The notes beneath the pieces were generated by a model. That model was not told the origin of the DNA. It saw nothing but the letters and a program-made list of their open reading frames with translations, and searched no databases. A stretch of DNA of 8,525 nucleotides, from NCBI GenBank assembly GCA_040757115.1, contig JBFLYA010000161.1, forward strand, positions 1-8,525. Direction: 5' to 3'. Positions 1,366 to 8,525 of this stretch are shown here, piece after piece (positions within the stretch are counted from its first letter, which is position 1; every line of letters begins with the position of its first letter). This DNA comes from a bacterium (GTDB taxonomy: Bacteria; UBA9089; CG2-30-40-21; SBAY01). Both the position numbers and the translations under genes were made by a program.

Positions 1366-2643
1366 ATGTTGTCGTCTTGGGAAAAACTAAAAACTAGAAA
1401 AATATGGATGAGTTCTATTTTTAGTGCCCTATGCTTTCCTGAAATAATATTTGCCATATTTATTGCTCCAACCAAATATACCTTTATCAGACAGACATAT
1501 TTACCTTTTTTACCATCCCCATTAATAATTTTTTATATTATTATTATTTTTCTAATTACCTTACAGATATTTCAGAAAGGTAAATTACCGCATATCCCTT
1601 TAAGTTTATTATTACCTTACTTTATCTTGGCGTGTATCATAGCCTTAAGTTTAATATACACATCTAATTTAGAGTATGGTAAAATTAAGTGTTTGGAATT
1701 TATGATGTATAGCACTTTAGCTCTGTTTGCACCATTTTTTTTATTTAGAGGTTTAAACAATATAAACCGCTTTATCTATACGCTACTTGTCATGGGCATC
1801 TTTTTATTTATTATTCTTTTTATTTCAAACCCTTATTTACTTACACGCACTTTTAGTACTATATTTGGGTCCAACTATTTATTAATACAGCATATCTCAG
1901 GGATGGCAGTATTAATAATTTGCTACTACTTTCTTTTAAAAAATCAACCATTAAAAAAACAAGTAATATGGGTATTTCTATTGGTGATACTTATAATGGC
2001 AATTATTTACCCGGGTGGGAAAGGAGCTGTTTTTACATTACTTATAACAACAATTATTATCGCAATTCCCTCCATAAAATTTAAGAATAAATTTAAAATA
2101 ATGAATAAGCGTCTTCTAATCATCCCACTTATAATTTTTATCATAGAGTGTGGGACACTAGGGTATTTTCATTTTGTTATGAAGTTTAGTGCTTTAACAG
2201 GTCGTCTTGGAGCTATATCATCACCACAACACTACAATCGAATAGAAAGACTGGAGAATGCTAAAGTCGCTTTAAAGCTATTTTCTCAATATCCTCTATC
2301 AGGGGTAGGGATTGGTGGATTCAGTGTCTATTCATATAAATTAGAGGGGATAGAAAGATTTAAATATCCTCATAATATCCTTCTGGAGGCTTTGGCTGAA
2401 TTAGGATTAATTGGATTCATCTCCCTTTCCCTTATTTTATTTTTTGCCTTTAAGAACCTTCTCTATTTGCAAAAAATATATAAATATTCACTTTTACCAG
2501 GAGTCTTTATGAGTATTTTTATCTTCACTTTTTTAAATTCTTTAACTTCTCAAGACATCACTAATCTTGCATTGTTCGCTTTCATTGGTTGTTCATATGC
2601 AATCGAACATAGCTTGAAAGATGAAAAGGAATGTGAGGGATGA
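1366..2643 (+). CDS. O-antigen ligase/polymerase-like polytopic membrane protein (WaaL/Wzy family)
   Basis: This very hydrophobic protein of about 425 residues has roughly a dozen membrane segments. One long extracytoplasmic loop sits before the last membrane helices, the layout of O-antigen ligases and Wzy polymerases. The loop carries the family pattern R-I-E-R-L-x-N-A followed by hydrophobic residues, then P-L-S-G-V-G-I-G-G-F (about nt 2239-2325) and Y-P-H-N-I-L-L-E-A-L-A-E-L-G (about nt 2365-2406); the HN-x3-E element is typical. The usual SRG-like motif after the middle helices reads GGKGA here (about nt 2014-2028), with Lys in place of Arg. I chose ATG 1366 because AAAGGAGG lies seven bases upstream. 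An in-frame ATG at 1309, preceded by GGAGG, would add 19 acidic residues and overlap the flippase gene. The end overlaps the next start as ATGA. Ligase and polymerase roles cannot be told apart from sequence. Confidence 0.85.
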   Translation: MLSSWEKLKTRKIWMSSIFSALCFPEIIFAIFIAPTKYTFIRQTYLPFLPSPLIIFYIIIIFLITLQIFQKGKLPHIPLSLLLPYFILACIIALSLIYTSNLEYGKIKCLEFMMYSTLALFAPFFLFRGLNNINRFIYTLLVMGIFLFIILFISNPYLLTRTFSTIFGSNYLLIQHISGMAVLIICYYFLLKNQPLKKQVIWVFLLVILIMAIIYPGGKGAVFTLLITTIIIAIPSIKFKNKFKIMNKRLLIIPLIIFIIECGTLGYFHFVMKFSALTGRLGAISSPQHYNRIERLENAKVALKLFSQYPLSGVGIGGFSVYSYKLEGIERFKYPHNILLEALAELGLIGFISLSLILFFAFKNLLYLQKIYKYSLLPGVFMSIFIFTFLNSLTSQDITNLALFAFIGCSYAIEHSLKDEKECEG

Positions 2644-3887
2644 ATATCTGGTTAATTCAAACAGGTGAAGTTTTACCCATAGAAGAAGATGTTTGCCAGA
2701 TGAGAACCTCTTTTTTGGCAGATAAACTTATTGAGAGAGGGCAAGATGTTCTATGGTGGGCGAGTGCCTTTGACCACTTTAAGAAAGATTGGATAGTTAG
2801 AAAAGATACCGAAATACCCATAAGTAAAAGATACAAAATTTTTGTGTTGAAAGGAATAGGCTACCGCAAGAATATCTCTTTATCCCGTTTTATAGACCAT
2901 AGAATTGTTGCCTGGAAGTTTAAAAAGATAGCTCCAAAAATGACTAAACCTGATATAATAATAACTTCAATGCCACCACATGATTTGGCTTATGAGGTGG
3001 TTATGTTTGCTAAGAAATATGATATACCCCTATTGGTTGATATAAGAGACCCCTGGCCTGACATATTTCTAAATCATACCACCAGAGTCTTCAGAGGATT
3101 AGCTAAGGCGATGCTTCAATATGACTTCCATATGATTAGAACAACTATGCAAATGGCTGATGGATTGATCGCAGTTACAGATACATTTTTGGGGTGGGGA
3201 TTGAGGTATGCAAAGAGGGATAGATGTCCATTTGACAAGATATATCCTCTTGGCTATAAAAGGTTAATATCCAGTGATACTTCAGAAGTCAGTGAAAGAT
3301 TTCTACCTCTCCTTCAATTCTTGAATGATAAATTTATCGTCTTCTTTGTAGGTACAATCTCAGAGGGTCATCATGATCCCTCTATACTTATAAAGGCAGC
3401 AGAGAAGTTTAAAGAAGATAAAAGGATTCATTTTATGCTCGCTGGCGATGGAGAACTCTTTGGTAGAGTGAAAGAAATGTCTGTGAACCTTCCAAATGTA
3501 ACCCTAACTGGATGGCTTAATCAGAATGAAATAGAGTTTTGGTTGCAAAGAGTTATGGTTGGTATATGTCCTGCTACAAAAAATGTAGATTTACCTACCA
3601 ATAAAGCTTTTATCTATCTTTCAGCAGGTTTGCCTATTATATCAGCCTGGCAAGGAGAGCTGAAAGAAACTATCGAAAAAGACCAGATTGGGTTTTATTA
3701 TCCCCCTAATAATGTTGATGCCCTTGTAAATTGTATTATAAATCTGTATAACAATCCTGAAATTTACAAAAACATGTCAGAGAATGCCAAAAGGGTTTTT
3801 GATGAGTTGTTTGATGCAGATAAAATATATACAGAGTATGCGGAGCACATTGAAAAAGTAGCGATTGAATATAGAAAAAGGGGATAG
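2640..3887 (+). CDS. GT-B fold glycosyltransferase, GT4-like
   Basis: This soluble protein of 415 residues has two Rossmann-like halves and probably transfers a sugar from a nucleotide-sugar donor to the growing lipid-linked glycan at the inner face of the membrane. The N-terminal half begins with a beta strand, W-L-I-Q-T-G-E (4-10), and has V-D-I-R-D-P-W-P-D (133-141), both typical of a GT4 subgroup found in capsule and O-antigen loci. The C-terminal donor domain shows F-V-G-T-I (236-240), L-A-G-D-G-E (267-272) and L-S-A-G-L-P-I-I-S (327-335) followed by Q-G-E. At the position where relatives usually carry Glu in N-K-x-F-E-Y, this protein has Ile325. No membrane segment or signal peptide is seen. 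The ATG overlaps the preceding stop as ATGA, with AAGGA nine bases upstream, so translation is probably coupled. The sugar and linkage are unknown. Confidence 0.88.
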   Translation: MNIWLIQTGEVLPIEEDVCQMRTSFLADKLIERGQDVLWWASAFDHFKKDWIVRKDTEIPISKRYKIFVLKGIGYRKNISLSRFIDHRIVAWKFKKIAPKMTKPDIIITSMPPHDLAYEVVMFAKKYDIPLLVDIRDPWPDIFLNHTTRVFRGLAKAMLQYDFHMIRTTMQMADGLIAVTDTFLGWGLRYAKRDRCPFDKIYPLGYKRLISSDTSEVSERFLPLLQFLNDKFIVFFVGTISEGHHDPSILIKAAEKFKEDKRIHFMLAGDGELFGRVKEMSVNLPNVTLTGWLNQNEIEFWLQRVMVGICPATKNVDLPTNKAFIYLSAGLPIISAWQGELKETIEKDQIGFYYPPNNVDALVNCIINLYNNPEIYKNMSENAKRVFDELFDADKIYTEYAEHIEKVAIEYRKRG

Positions 3888-3932: not shown

Positions 3933-4553
3933 GTGAAGCGGTTATTTGATATAGTTTTTTCGTTAATTGGTTTAATTTTCCTTTTTCCGTGCTTTGGAAT
4001 AATATCCTTTTTAATAAAAAAGGAAGATAGAGGTCCTGTATTTTATCGGGGACTGAGGGTTGGGATATGTGGAATACCTTTCAGAATTTTTAAGTTCAGA
4101 ACAATGGTAATTAATGCAGATAAAATTGGAGGTCTTTCAACCGCAGATGATGACCCAAGGATTACAAAAATTGGCAAAAGACTCAGGAAATATAAACTTG
4201 ATGAGTTACCACAATTAATAAATGTGCTAAAAGGTGATATAAGTTTTGTGGGACCAAGGCCAGAAGTTCAACATTATGTTAATATGTTCACCGAGGAAGA
4301 AAAGGCTATTCTAAGTATCCGTCCAGGGATCACAGATTGGGCTTGTCTTTGGAATTCAGATGAAGGGGCAATTCTCTCAGGAAGCCCTGACCCTGAAAAA
4401 ACTTATATGGAAAAGATTCGTCCAACAAAGCTCAAACTTCAATTAAAATATGTGAAAGAACAATCCTTGTGGACAGATTTAAAAATTATATATCTAACCA
4501 TTATGACTATTCTAACAAGGAAGCAGGTGTGGAATTATGAGGAAGAAATATAA
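3933..4553 (+). CDS. Undecaprenyl-phosphate sugar-1-phosphate transferase (short monotopic type)
   Basis: This is a bacterial sugar transferase of the PglC/WcaJ superfamily. It moves a sugar-1-phosphate from a nucleotide sugar to undecaprenyl phosphate and so starts glycan assembly on the cytoplasmic face of the inner membrane. At 206 residues it is the minimal catalytic form, without the extra N-terminal membrane domain of WcaJ. The order is: basic K-R-L-F-D start; a re-entrant hydrophobic helix (about 7-28) with a central Pro19; G-P-V-F-Y-R and R-V-G; K-F-R-T-M (54-58); the catalytic Asp90-Glu91 in K-L-D-E-L-P-Q-L; G-P-R-P-E (107-111); and R-P-G-I-T-D-W. The start is GTG, supported by AAAGAGGT eight bases upstream. 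The stop is a tandem TAATAA, and the next gene begins 16 nt before the end of this one. The family call is firm; the donor sugar is unknown. Confidence 0.93.
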   Translation: MKRLFDIVFSLIGLIFLFPCFGIISFLIKKEDRGPVFYRGLRVGICGIPFRIFKFRTMVINADKIGGLSTADDDPRITKIGKRLRKYKLDELPQLINVLKGDISFVGPRPEVQHYVNMFTEEEKAILSIRPGITDWACLWNSDEGAILSGSPDPEKTYMEKIRPTKLKLQLKYVKEQSLWTDLKIIYLTIMTILTRKQVWNYEEEI

Positions 4554-5523
4554 TAAGAACTTTTTGGTAGGATTATATCGGACGATGATGAGGATACGGA
4601 TATGTGAGGAGAGTTTAGTAGAACCTATTCTGAGGGGTGAGGTTAAATGCCCATGCCACCTTTATTCTGGGGAGGAAGCAATAGCCACAGGAGTTTGTGC
4701 GGCTTTAGATGAAAGTGATTATATCTTCGGAAGCCATCGTTCTCATGGCCATTATCTGGCTAAGGGAGGTAGTATGCCAGAACTTATAGCTGAGATTTAC
4801 GGTAAGGAAACAGGTTGTTCAAAGGGTAGAGGTGGGTCGATGCATCTAATTGCTCCTGAAAAAGGTATGCTTGGGGCAGTGCCTATTGTAGGTGGGACTA
4901 TCTCCATAGCTCTGGGTGCGGCATTGGCTTCAAAGATAAGGAAACAAAAGCGGGTAACCGTAAGTTTCTTTGGTGATGGAACAACTGGAGAAGGTGTGCT
5001 CTATGAATCTCTTAATTTTGCCTCCCTTAAAAAACTGCCCATTATTTTTGCCTGCGAAAACAACCTTTATTCAACCCATCTGCCAATTAGGGAATGCCGC
5101 TTACAAAATAATATTTTTAAAACGGGTGTGCCATTTGGTATTCCAGGGGACAGGGTGGATGGCAATAATGTTTTAAAGGTTTATGAATCAACTAAAGCGG
5201 CAGTTGAGATTTGCAAAAAAGGTAACGGCCCGGTATTCATTGAATTTTTAACTTATAGATTACGAGGACATGTTGGGCCTGATGATAATATTCATGGGAT
5301 GCGGACAGATATCAGACCAAAGGAAGAAATAGAAAGATGGCAAAAAAAGGACCCTATTAAAAGATATGAAAGATTTCTTTTTAAAAATAAGATTTTGGTA
5401 AAGCAAGAGGTTGAAATGATTAGAAAAGAAGTAGAACAAGAGGTTAACAATAGCTTTGCCTTTGCTCTAAGCAGTTCATATCCAAAAGAAATGGAGTTAA
5501 CAAAATATGTCTTTAAAGAATAG
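4537..5523 (+). CDS. ThDP-dependent 2-oxo-acid dehydrogenase E1-like enzyme, alpha subunit
   Basis: This 328-residue protein is the cofactor-binding half of a two-subunit thiamine-diphosphate enzyme related to pyruvate and acetoin dehydrogenase E1. Visible family elements are G-S-H-R-S-H-G-H (65-72), whose His70 lies where the human E1 alpha HG-F histidine sits; G-R-G-G-S-M-H (98-103 and following); and the ThDP motif G-D-G (146-148) with Asp147, Asn176 and Tyr178 spaced as the Mg2+/diphosphate ligands of human E1 alpha. The R-G-H-V-G-P-D-D loop (243-250) keeps the catalytic-loop His245, but the position after it is Val, not the phosphorylated Ser of animal enzymes. The ATG lies inside the end of the transferase gene, with AGGTG seven bases upstream. 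It is followed by the beta subunit with a 17-nt overlap. No E2 or E3 gene is in view. From memory, such pairs recur in surface-polysaccharide loci, which argues for a sugar-related rather than central-metabolic role. Confidence 0.92.
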   Translation: MRKKYNKNFLVGLYRTMMRIRICEESLVEPILRGEVKCPCHLYSGEEAIATGVCAALDESDYIFGSHRSHGHYLAKGGSMPELIAEIYGKETGCSKGRGGSMHLIAPEKGMLGAVPIVGGTISIALGAALASKIRKQKRVTVSFFGDGTTGEGVLYESLNFASLKKLPIIFACENNLYSTHLPIRECRLQNNIFKTGVPFGIPGDRVDGNNVLKVYESTKAAVEICKKGNGPVFIEFLTYRLRGHVGPDDNIHGMRTDIRPKEEIERWQKKDPIKRYERFLFKNKILVKQEVEMIRKEVEQEVNNSFAFALSSSYPKEMELTKYVFKE

Positions 5524-6505
5524 AAAATTGCAATACAGCTTAGCCATAAATGAGGCAATCCATCAGATGATGGAGATTGATGAATCTGTTTTTCTTATAG
5601 GCCAGGGGGTGAAAAGTCCATGGTATGTCGGAAATACCGCCAGAGGGCTTTTGGAGAGATTTGGAGATGAGCGGGTTATTGATACCCCGGTTTCTGAAAA
5701 TGCCATAACAGGTGCCGCTGTTGGTGCCGCTATTGCCGGAATGAGACCAATAGTTGTTCATCCAAGAATGGATTTTATGATGTATGCTATGGACCCCATC
5801 ATTAATGAATCAGCAAATTGGCATTATATGTTTGGTGGAAATTCAACAGTGCCTGTGGTGATATGGAGTATTATCAACCGGGGTGGAGAGCAGGCCGCAC
5901 AACATTCCCAGTCATTACATACCCTTTGTGCTCATATCCCGGGGTTAAAGGTTGTTATGCCTGCAACACCTTATGATGTCAAGGGACTTATGATCGCCGC
6001 CATAAAAGATGATAATCCAGTTATCTATATAGATGATAGATGGCTATATAATTTAGAAGGTGATGTTCCTGAAGAAATCTATTCAGTACCTATTGGAAAG
6101 GGTATCATCTGCAAAAAGGGTAAGGATATTACTTTAGTATCTGTATCCTACATGGCAATTGAAGCCATAAAGGCGGCTGAATATCTTAAAAAAGAAGGAA
6201 TTGATGTAGAAGTTATTGACCTTCGGTCTGTTAAACCTATTGATAAAGAACTTTTATTTGAATCTGTAAAAAAAACAGGTAGACTTATTATTGCTGATTG
6301 TGGTTGGAAGACATGTGGATTTGCGGCTGAGATATCGGCGATGGTGTGTGAAAATATCTTTGAGTATCTTAAGTCACCGATAGCCCGAATTACCTTACCT
6401 GATACTCCAGCTCCAGCAAGTTTTGCCTTAGAAAAGGTATATTATCCAAAGAGTGATAATATTATCGCCAAAATACAGGAGGTTCTCAAATGGGAAACCA
6501 AATAA
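5507..6505 (+). CDS. ThDP-dependent 2-oxo-acid dehydrogenase E1-like enzyme, beta subunit
   Basis: This 332-residue partner of the preceding alpha subunit has a transketolase-like pyrimidine-binding domain (about 1-175) and a transketolase C-terminal domain (about 195-320). D-T-P-V-S-E (59-64) supplies the Glu64 that activates the ThDP aminopyrimidine ring, followed by N-A-I-T-G-A-A-V-G-A-A. A-Q-H-S-Q-S-L-H (131-138) contains the active-site-entrance His133, then H-I-P-G-L-K-V-V-M-P-A-T-P-Y-D. Compared with classical PDH beta subunits, the stretches I-G-Q-G-V-K-S-P-W-Y-V-G (31-42) and D-D-R-W-L-Y-N-L-E-G (176-185) are distinctive, and I associate them with the polysaccharide-locus subgroup. 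The ATG lies 17 nt inside the alpha gene with a modest GGAG ten bases upstream, so coupled translation would help keep subunit amounts equal. The expected assembly is an alpha2beta2 heterotetramer in the cytoplasm. The substrate is unknown. Confidence 0.92.
   Translation: MSLKNRKLQYSLAINEAIHQMMEIDESVFLIGQGVKSPWYVGNTARGLLERFGDERVIDTPVSENAITGAAVGAAIAGMRPIVVHPRMDFMMYAMDPIINESANWHYMFGGNSTVPVVIWSIINRGGEQAAQHSQSLHTLCAHIPGLKVVMPATPYDVKGLMIAAIKDDNPVIYIDDRWLYNLEGDVPEEIYSVPIGKGIICKKGKDITLVSVSYMAIEAIKAAEYLKKEGIDVEVIDLRSVKPIDKELLFESVKKTGRLIIADCGWKTCGFAAEISAMVCENIFEYLKSPIARITLPDTPAPASFALEKVYYPKSDNIIAKIQEVLKWETK
6477..6483 (+). promoter_or_regulatory. Strong ribosome binding site for the aminotransferase, inside the E1 beta gene
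   Basis: AGGAGGT lies six bases before ATG 6490, within the last codons of the E1 beta gene. It fixes the start and the 16-nt overlap, and suggests that the aminotransferase can be initiated efficiently on its own. Confidence 0.75.
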
Positions 6506-7599
6506 GATTCGTCAATTACCCCAGACAATATCAACAACTGAAGTCAGAGTTTGACAGCGTCTTTGAAAGGATAATGTCAAATGGTGATTTTATTCTACGG
6601 CAGGATTTAGAGGAATTTGAACATAATATTGCCCAATATGTTGGGACTAAACATGCTATTGGTGTCAATACAGGAACTGATGCCTTGTATCTTTCTGCAC
6701 ATGCCTTAGATTTTGGTGCAGGAGATGAAATCATTACTGTCGCTCATACATTTGTAGCTACTATTGGTGCTATTGTTCAATGTGGTGCCACACCTATACT
6801 TGTAGATATTAAAGATGATTTTAATATAGATGTTGACCAGATTGAACCCGCTATTACCCCTAAGACAAAGGGGATAATTCCAGTTCACCTTAATGGACAT
6901 TCATGCAATATGGATAGGATTATGCAATTAGCACAAAAATATAATCTTATGATTATTGAGGATGCCGCCCAGGCATTGGGTGCAAAATTCAAAGGCAAAC
7001 GATGTGGCTCTTTTGGTCATACCAGCATATTTAGCTTTTATCCAGCCAAAATGTTAGGCACAGCAGGTGATGGAGGAATAATATGCACGGATGACGATAG
7101 ATTGGCAAGAAAACTTAGGGCATTTCGAGATAACGGAAGGGTTGATACGGTTGAAGTGATAGAATGTTTTGGATGGTGCAGCCGTCTTGATAACCTACAT
7201 GCCGCTTTACTTAATATGAAATTCAAATATTTTGATAAATGGGTAAATCGCCGTAGAGAGATTGCCAGATTATATGATGAAGGGTTGTCAAACATTCCAG
7301 AAGTAATTACTCATCCTCGTCCAAATGATGACTACTTTGATGTATATCAAAATTATGTCATTCGAACTAAAAGACGCAATGAATTAGCTCAATATTTGCG
7401 TAAATGTGGGATAGAAATATTAATTTCCTGGCCTACACCTCTACATAAACAGAAGGCTTTAGGACTTAGTGATTTCAGTTTACCTGTGACTGAACAAATA
7501 TCAACTGAAGTTATTTCTCTACCAATGTATCCCGAGTTGACTGATGATGAAGTACAAATAGTTATAGAGACTATCTATGATTTTTTTAAGAAGGAGTGA
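6490..7599 (+). CDS. DegT/DnrJ/EryC1/StrS-type PLP-dependent sugar aminotransferase
   Basis: This 369-residue fold-type I aminotransferase probably transfers an amino group, usually from glutamate, to a keto group on a nucleotide-activated sugar. Motifs run in family order: N-T-G-T-D-A-L (60-66) for cofactor phosphate binding; P-V-H-L-N-G (131-136); I-E-D-A-A-Q-A-L-G-A (156-165), with Asp158 contacting the PLP ring nitrogen and Gln161 alongside; F-S-F-Y-P-A-K (181-187), with Lys187 as the Schiff-base lysine, followed by G-D-G-G; and R-L-D-N-L-H-A-A-L-L (232-241). The end has the usual L-P-M-Y-P-E-L-T. All key residues are present and the length is normal. The start is set by AGGAGGT six bases upstream, and the gene overlaps the E1 beta end by 16 nt. 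Whether it acts at C3 or C4, and on which sugar, cannot be read from sequence. No dehydratase or oxidase that would make its keto sugar lies in this window. Confidence 0.94.
   Translation: MGNQIRFVNYPRQYQQLKSEFDSVFERIMSNGDFILRQDLEEFEHNIAQYVGTKHAIGVNTGTDALYLSAHALDFGAGDEIITVAHTFVATIGAIVQCGATPILVDIKDDFNIDVDQIEPAITPKTKGIIPVHLNGHSCNMDRIMQLAQKYNLMIIEDAAQALGAKFKGKRCGSFGHTSIFSFYPAKMLGTAGDGGIICTDDDRLARKLRAFRDNGRVDTVEVIECFGWCSRLDNLHAALLNMKFKYFDKWVNRRREIARLYDEGLSNIPEVITHPRPNDDYFDVYQNYVIRTKRRNELAQYLRKCGIEILISWPTPLHKQKALGLSDFSLPVTEQISTEVISLPMYPELTDDEVQIVIETIYDFFKKE
7591..7596 (+). promoter_or_regulatory. Probable ribosome binding site for the methyltransferase
   Basis: AAGGAG overlaps the last codons of the aminotransferase and lies 13 bases before ATG 7610. 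The spacing is longer than ideal, but it is the only good match near either candidate start. Confidence 0.5.
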
Positions 7600-7609
7600 T
7601 GATAGAAAT

Positions 7610-8377
7610 ATGTCTGATTTTTCAACAGTGACAGAAATAACCGGCTATAATGTTACACAGGAACAAATAGAAAGGATGTATACTCGCTACCACTTTGCAG
7701 GTTTGTTTTGTGAAGGGAAGAATGTCCTGGAAGTCGCCTGCGGTTCTGGACAGGGGTTAGGTTATTTAACTCATAAGGCAAAAAAAGTCGTTGGGGTAGA
7801 TATTGATAAAAAACTATTAGAAACTATCCAGAGACATTATAAAGACAGGATACAACTCTTGCGAGCAAATGCACAACAATTGCCTTTTAAGGATAAAAGT
7901 TTTGATGTGGTCATCCTCTATGAGGCTATTTATTATCTATCTTGCCCGGAAAGATTTATAGAAGAATCAGCTCGCATACTTACAGATAAAGGCATTCTTC
8001 TTATTTGCACAGTCAACAAAGAATGGCATGATTTCAACCCATCTCCTTATAGTACTAAATATTTCTCTGTTAGAGAGTTATATTCTCTTTTGAAACAAAG
8101 ATTTATCAATGTAGAAATTTATGGGGCATCGCCAATATCTGATGCGGTAAAGGATAAGATTATTTCCATAATAAAAAGATTTGCCGTTAAATTTCACCTG
8201 ATACCAGAGACAATGAAAGGTAAGGAGTTTTTTAAAAGGATTTTCTGTGGGAAATTAGTTCCTCTGCCTCCTGAAATAAAGGATGGCATAGCAGAATACA
8301 TCCCACCTGTGCCAATATCTTATGATTTACCAATTTATCAATATAAAGTTTTATTTGCGGTAGGGAAATTAAGTTGA
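7610..8377 (+). CDS. Class I SAM-dependent methyltransferase
   Basis: This 255-residue protein has a standard Rossmann methyltransferase core in its first two thirds. Motif I is V-L-E-V-A-C-G-S-G-Q-G (39-49). The acidic end of strand beta2 is V-G-V-D-I-D (61-66). N-A-Q-Q-L-P-F (87-93) and F-D-V-V-I-L-Y-E-A-I-Y-Y-L (98-110) follow, then the helix R-F-I-E-E-S-A-R-I-L and G-I-L-L-I-C (128-133). The last third (about 170-255), rich in Pro and basic residues, is not a motif I recognise and may bind the acceptor. I chose ATG 7610 over the in-frame ATG at 7577 because AAGGAG (7591-7596) lies between them and the longer start would overlap the aminotransferase by 23 nt without a good ribosome site. 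The gene ends in tandem TGATAA. In context it is likely an O- or N-methyltransferase for a sugar or amino sugar; the acceptor is unproven. Confidence 0.88.
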   Translation: MSDFSTVTEITGYNVTQEQIERMYTRYHFAGLFCEGKNVLEVACGSGQGLGYLTHKAKKVVGVDIDKKLLETIQRHYKDRIQLLRANAQQLPFKDKSFDVVILYEAIYYLSCPERFIEESARILTDKGILLICTVNKEWHDFNPSPYSTKYFSVRELYSLLKQRFINVEIYGASPISDAVKDKIISIIKRFAVKFHLIPETMKGKEFFKRIFCGKLVPLPPEIKDGIAEYIPPVPISYDLPIYQYKVLFAVGKLS

Positions 8378-8433
8378 TAAGGAAATAAATTGACGGAGGG
8401 TAATGGGTCAGTGAAATGGGGGATTCTCCTGAA

Positions 8434-8463
8434 AGTAGGAAGTAGGAGAGTAGGAAAGTAGGA
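8434..8463. repeat. Short tandem array of AGTAGGA units
   Basis: Four perfect copies of AGTAGGA start at 8434, 8441, 8449 and 8457, so the period is seven then eight bases. From 8441 the unit is best read as AGTAGGA plus one purine, and a decayed further copy (AGGGGGAG) follows at 8465-8472. The strand is almost entirely purine plus T. The array lies in non-coding DNA just after the last gene, and its function is unknown. Confidence 0.85.
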
Positions 8464-8525
8464 AAGGGGGAGACATTGCCCCCAGAAGAGGAATACCGTG
8501 CACATCCTTTATCCCTTTCCTACTT
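8456..8525. repeat. 13-bp perfect inverted repeat overlapping the array and running to the window edge
   Basis: AAGTAGGAAAGGG at 8456-8468 is the exact reverse complement of CCCTTTCCTACTT at 8513-8525, with 44 bases between. The left arm is part of the AGTAGGA array and the right arm is cut by the window end, so the true repeat may be longer. This could be a small non-autonomous element with inverted ends, a dispersed intergenic repeat, or a large RNA hairpin at the operon end. No T-run is visible, so I do not call it a terminator. Confidence 0.7.
8466..8483. repeat. Small GC hairpin inside the inverted repeat
   Basis: GGGGG (8466-8470) and CCCCC (8479-8483) can pair around an eight-base loop. 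Its left arm shares three bases with the larger inverted repeat, so the two structures would partly compete. It is not followed by a run of T and is not a standard terminator. Confidence 0.45.

Follow-up and report, generated by a model that had tools for sequence, protein, structure and literature searches.

An E1-type enzyme pair in a conserved surface-glycan gene cassette as a probable ketosugar carboligase

Why would a pair of E1 subunits, of the kind known from 2-oxo acid dehydrogenase complexes, be encoded between a phosphoglycosyl transferase and a sugar aminotransferase? We addressed this question for a window, i.e. the whole stretch of DNA analysed, that comprises one entire contig (C161) of 8525 bases from a 4.3-Mb genome with an estimated completeness of 99.87%.

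Gene content and order of the locus

The plus strand carries every gene of contig C161. Positions 3–1328 encode a MurJ/Wzx-like lipid-linked glycan flippase (PF03023 MurJ, E = 1e-58), the 5' end of which is cut by the contig; a full-length copy of 514 aa is present in a sister genome (L035). It is followed by genes for a Wzy/O-antigen-ligase-like polymerase (1309–2643; PF04932 Wzy_C, E = 1e-11), a GT4-type glycosyltransferase (2640–3887; PF00534, PF13692), and a monotopic phosphoglycosyl transferase (PGT) of 206 aa with a PglC/WcaJ-type core and a GTG start (3933–4553; PF02397, E = 2e-58). Next come the two subunits of the proposed ketosugar carboligase, the ThDP-binding E1 alpha-like protein of 328 aa (4537–5523; PF00676 E1_dh, E = 2e-72) and the E1 beta-like protein of 332 aa (5507–6505; PF02779 Transket_pyr, PF02780 Transketolase_C). 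A DegT/DnrJ/EryC1/StrS sugar aminotransferase with its catalytic Lys187 (6490–7599; PF01041, E = 1e-106) and a class I SAM-dependent methyltransferase (7577–8377; PF08241, E = 2e-22), whose family MT8 recurs in related cassettes, complete the set. From the PGT onward, each gene overlaps the next by 16–23 bases, with 17 bases for both PGT/E1 alpha and E1 alpha/E1 beta. Thus, translation of these genes is very likely coupled within one operon.

The contig ends with a spacer (8378–8525) containing purine repeats of the AGTAGGA type 3' of the methyltransferase gene. Its last 120 bases match bases 2–121 of contig C90 from the same genome, where complementary CCTACTT repeats continue. This spacer rich in inverted repeats probably broke the assembly; a spacer with AGTAGGA/CCTACTT repeats also occurs in the sister genome. 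The first gene of contig C90 (207–2018) encodes a Polysacc_synt_2/CapD protein that shares 99% identity over 604 aa with its counterpart in sister genome G001, encoded there 3' of the methyltransferase gene. Its closest solved relative is WlaL, known as PglF, the UDP-GlcNAc 4,6-dehydratase of C. jejuni. Judged by its sequence, the gene following the methyltransferase on the overlapping contig is one for a PglF-type UDP-GlcNAc 4,6-dehydratase.

Relation of the E1 pair to 2-oxo acid dehydrogenase complexes

Both E1 open reading frames are whole, and the ThDP-binding, metal-binding, and catalytic residues are in place (alpha H70, D147, N176, Y178, and H245; beta E64 and H133), being invariant or nearly so. 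The original prediction had described the two subunits as complete and catalytically equipped and had named a phosphoglycosyl transferase and a sugar aminotransferase as their neighbours, in agreement with our analysis. Its further claim that the locus provides no lipoyl E2 or E3 partner also held, as neither was found within the window.

The pair might nevertheless be the E1 component of a conventional 2-oxo acid dehydrogenase complex with E2 and E3 encoded elsewhere, since PDH E1 enzymes are the closest solved structures and NCBIfam models, and E1 alpha is the only full-length representative of its kind in the genome. However, the E2 catalytic domain (PF00198) was found neither next door nor anywhere else in the 4.3-Mb genome, while the identical search was positive in 10 of 14 control genomes. 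Nor was a second full-length E1 alpha detected: the three other matches to PF00676 are weak and partial, covering approximately 65–110 profile positions in open reading frames of approximately 275 aa, and are taken to be split transketolase. The genome contains instead two genes for POR_N-type 2-oxo acid:ferredoxin oxidoreductases, and a PDH is thus not required as a source of acetyl-CoA. Moreover, E1 alpha scored 319.8 and 223.9 bits against the two PDH E1 alpha equivalog models of NCBIfam, the cut-offs of which are 393.85 and 411.35 bits, respectively, and E1 beta reached only a subfamily-level model.

Phylogenetic trees of both subunits placed the pair outside the E2-linked E1 proteins. All 83 cassette rows and one duplicate formed a single clade of the beta tree (SH-aLRT support 99), nested in a larger group that lacked linked E2 and was split from all E2-linked rows. 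The alpha tree was concordant (76 rows plus the same duplicate, support 99). The antibiotic E1 pairs AviB1/B2, Pau11/12, and KbDH were not among the rows of these trees. While the catalytic residues are all kept, sequence positions close to them are fixed, and the residues found there are absent or rare in PDH-like rows. In the alpha chain, these are S69, T180-H181, and V246-G247-P248, the latter directly after His245; in the beta chain, H85-P86-R87, W120, N124-R125, G127-E128-Q129 (before His133), D176, and R178. Alpha P39 and F64 are likewise clade-specific. The two search patterns of our genome scan fall in beta 32–39 and 79–86, so that conservation is partly imposed there and not elsewhere. 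The beta-chain signature (GQGVxSPWYVG, HPRMDF, INRGGEQ, IDDRWLY) makes cassette E1 pairs easy to find. Because of the missing E2 and the separate clade, we rejected ordinary PDH membership, and the assignment to a dehydrogenase complex with remote partners is already contradicted to a degree that leaves it almost no probability.

A recurrent cassette in bacteria and archaea

An alignment of E1 beta was scanned over 84,980 species genomes, which yielded 131 relatives. The best 80 were kept; they comprise 73 bacterial and six archaeal relatives and one without assignment, and cover 24 named phyla. Clustering of the neighbours and tblastn with the cassette proteins revealed the order [GT2] – [methyltransferase] – PGT – E1a – E1b – DegT – [class I aminotransferase] – [methyltransferase] – CapD in most bacteria, where the PGT adjoins the E1 pair in most cassettes, and GT4 – SDR – E1a – E1b – DegT – methyltransferase in archaea and Chloroflexota. 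Flanks of at least 4 kb on each side were available for 41 loci; among these, DegT occurred in 35, the PGT in 32, and CapD or SDR in 31. The CapD motif STDKA is kept in 33 of 34 proteins, the catalytic lysine of DegT in 79 of 80 aligned, and both S/T-S-E and YxxxK are present in the SDR whose gene precedes E1 alpha in archaeal and Chloroflexota cassettes. None of the 80 cassette loci had an E2 nearby, whereas the same probe was positive in 11 loci with PDH-like relatives; a lipoyl-motif protein was likewise not found near cassette loci. No E2 was present anywhere in 25 of the 41 cassette genomes tested, including those of Parcubacteria, ANME-1, and Methanothrix, although most of the 25 are metagenome assemblies and may be incomplete.

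The distribution is patchy, as a close E1 alpha was seen in only three sampled genomes of the window's own phylum, namely its own, one from the same genus, and another from the same family. The archaeal cassettes with an SDR before E1 alpha in place of PGT and CapD (L090:484–3517, L114, L115, L121, L122, and L110) belong to Thermoplasmatota, ANME-1, Methanothrix, Bathyarchaeota, and Nitrososphaeria. A family mate (G002, isolate Yes70-31; L036 and L070) apparently has E1 beta twice, once beside a PGT and once in a PGT-free locus of the archaeal-type order; a second E1 alpha would lie in a masked stretch. Searches of plasmids returned distant relatives only (<60% identity), with the three E1-pair records examined there on deeper branches of the wider clade, and phage matches did not exceed 40% identity and were mostly in unannotated records. 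A more distant pair on plasmid pDMC1 of Solidesulfovibrio magneticus (L144:10970–12993) is accompanied by a GDP-fucose-synthase-like SDR, DegT, a kinase, a nucleotidyltransferase, and an SIS protein, which suggests another ketosugar acceptor, perhaps a heptose. On plasmid pSGRIFU1 of Streptomyces griseofuscus (L145:10998–13044), the E1 pair lies in a polyketide/NRPS cluster, presumably lankacidin-like, with no annotated E2 nearby; both trees placed it in the wider group that lacks a linked E2.

Six cassettes (L086, L092, L095, L103, L120, and L124) contain an aldo-keto reductase (AKR) gene just upstream of E1 alpha and lack DegT. At loci with full flanks, DegT was present in none of the five with AKR but in 35 of the 36 others (Fisher p = 8e-6, not corrected for phylogeny). 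On the tree, the distribution of AKR requires five changes; there are four to five independent AKR/DegT pairs, and all four on supported branches behaved as expected, a number too small for the sign test to reach significance (p = 0.125). In L127, DegT lies between PGT and E1 alpha, in the slot taken by AKR in the close relative L103. We conclude that AKR stands in for DegT in some cassettes. A class I/II amino-acid-type aminotransferase of the kynurenine/aspartate type was observed in 18 of the 35 full-flank DegT cassettes (e.g. L075:12136–13302) and in no AKR cassette.

A predicted branching reaction and related systems

With pyruvate, an E1 enzyme forms a ThDP-bound hydroxyethyl carbanion, which can attack a ketone when lipoamide is not available. 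The cassette holds what characterises pathways of the alpha-KADH2 kind: an E1 pair without E2/E3 in a sugar cluster, a ketosugar-forming enzyme (CapD/SDR), and a DegT or AKR. We consider it probable that the E1 pair is a stand-alone ThDP carboligase of this kind, which uses pyruvate to put an acetyl branch on a 4-keto nucleotide sugar, and that DegT or AKR then converts the branch ketone. Gene content, gene overlaps, the missing E2, clade separation, recurrence of the cassette, and the exchange of AKR for DegT form the observed basis of this proposal. The PglF-type dehydratase would make UDP-2-acetamido-2,6-dideoxy-4-ketohexose, and the E1 pair, having no lipoyl acceptor, would decarboxylate pyruvate, its presumed donor, to a C2 carbanion. 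Attack of this carbanion on the ketone of the presumed acceptor would create a C-acetyl branch on a tertiary alcohol, predicted at C4 rather than C3. Transamination of the branch ketone by DegT may subsequently give an aminoethyl branch, and reduction by AKR in some relatives a hydroxyethyl branch. In this putative order of steps, the methyltransferase would finish the sugar, and the adjacent PGT would start a surface glycan by transferring this predicted final sugar to undecaprenyl phosphate. From the lack of an E2 in the genome and the separate clade we infer, in line with the original prediction, a carboligase acting on a nucleotide sugar and not an acyl-transferring dehydrogenase.

A single ketone can be consumed in two ways, by an aminotransferase or by a reductase. 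If the branch ketone is the one in question, DegT would have to act on a side chain, yet its nearest solved structures are 7b0d, 5u1z, QdtB, 2oga, and WbpE, and its resemblance to sugar 3-aminotransferases (QdtB, DesV, WbpE), which use ring ketones, counts against our proposal. DegT and AKR could instead act on a ring ketone at C4, as in bacillosamine- or QuiNAc-type sugars, with C3 of that sugar, or a different ketosugar altogether, left to the E1 pair. Relatives of DegT do use C3 or C4 ring ketones, a shared ring ketone would also fit the AKR/DegT exchange, and branches are located at C3 in kibdelomycin and aldgamycin (PMC12247030). This arrangement would, however, leave the E1 pair without a ketone acceptor wherever the cassette has only one ketosugar-forming enzyme, and neither a 3,4-ketoisomerase nor a 3-dehydrogenase was recognised among the annotated recurrent neighbours, so we regard it as unlikely.

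A role as decarboxylase or acyloin synthase, which would supply a small metabolite or an acyl group (e.g. for N-acylation) to decorate the glycan without any C-branch, appears more improbable still. The E1 pair does sit where the acetyltransferase PglD would be in an otherwise Pgl-like set, and the class I aminotransferase of about half of the cassettes could provide a 2-oxo acid. N-acylation would nonetheless need an oxidant, and the surroundings offer neither an E2 or lipoyl-motif protein nor, among the recurrent neighbours, a recognised redox partner; in AKR cassettes, there would be no new amine to acylate because DegT is absent. Two further observations count against the branching scheme that we favour: a 4,6-dehydratase was not seen nearby in 10 of the 41 full-flank loci, and the class I aminotransferase of 18 of the 35 DegT cassettes has no place in it.

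The original prediction expected new biology at this locus. This applies to the setting, a conserved glycan-priming cassette of bacteria and archaea, but not to the chemistry, as C2 branching of ketosugars by alpha-KADH2 enzymes is already in the literature. Such enzymes put C2 branches on ketosugars, and KbDH-alpha/beta has been shown to do so in vitro with pyruvate as donor and sugar-analogue pyranones as acceptors (PMC12247030). According to a 2025 review, the branch ketones may be reduced, as in paulomycin F, or transaminated, as in kibdelomycin (PMC12247030); in paulomycin, the AKR Pau7 reduces the acetyl-branch ketone that originates from an E1-like pair (PMC4753412). Earlier work has proposed or supported C2-branching E1-like pairs, with AviB1/B2, Pau11/12, Plm8/9, and EvdU5/S3 as precedents, in the pathways to avilamycin, paulomycin, everninomicin, kosinostatin, and aldgamycin. 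The review connects branching in LPS with YerE-like enzymes and alpha-KADH2 mainly with antimicrobial natural products (PMC12247030). In the open-access literature, we found no report of a surface-glycan cassette with E1-type branching and nothing relevant on E1 pairs in O-antigen, Coxiella virenose, or Archaeoglobus transaminase contexts. The kind of enzyme is thus known, while its use in a conserved cassette for glycan priming, shared by bacteria and archaea, appears to be undescribed.

More tentatively, bacteria and archaea might share a widespread but so far unrecognised class of surface glycan whose priming sugar is a C-branched amino octose, for example 2-acetamido-2,6-dideoxy-4-C-(1-aminoethyl)hexose, made with an E1-derived carboligase, the branch being switchable between amine and alcohol by exchange of one gene. 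E1 pairs of such loci match PDH models and would be tallied as central metabolism. Should our reading hold, these pairs are markers of a family of branched surface sugars whose carriers range from Thermodesulfobacteriota and Bacteroidota to Parcubacteria, ANME-1, and Nitrososphaeria, and ketone-accepting alpha-KADH2 enzymes would extend from mainly antibiotic pathways to cell envelopes (PMC12247030). Geomonas paludis, a named species that carries the AKR cassette L120, makes the prediction testable.

The cassette pair shares fold, ThDP site, and catalytic His and Glu with pyruvate and branched-chain 2-oxo acid dehydrogenase E1, but differs in the lack of E2/E3, the residues specific to its clade next to the active-site His and Glu, and its separate branch. 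The Pgl bacillosamine set (PglF, PglE, PglD, PglC) likewise combines a PglF-type dehydratase, a DegT protein, and a small PGT acting on a UDP-HexNAc; the window, in contrast, has the E1 pair instead of a PglD-type acetyltransferase, and its DegT is nearer to 3-aminotransferases than to 4-aminotransferases. With YerE and YerE-like enzymes of yersiniose and caryophyllose, the pair has in common the surface-polysaccharide setting and the proposed chemistry, in which pyruvate donates an acetyl group to a 4-keto nucleotide sugar. YerE, however, is a single-chain flavoprotein of the acetohydroxyacid synthase type (ThDP/FAD), whereas the cassette enzyme consists of two chains with E1_dh and Transket_pyr/C domains. 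Like AviB1/AviB2, Pau11/Pau12, Plm8/Plm9, EvdU5/EvdS3, and KbDH-alpha/beta, it is a two-chain E1 in a sugar pathway, encoded beside ketosugar-forming and branch-modifying enzymes, the latter role being predicted here for DegT and AKR, and it would share with them a C2 branch derived from pyruvate. The antibiotic pairs belong to actinobacterial antibiotic clusters, whereas the pair described here belongs to a glycan operon with a PGT and a PglF-type dehydratase and is spread over many phyla and archaea.
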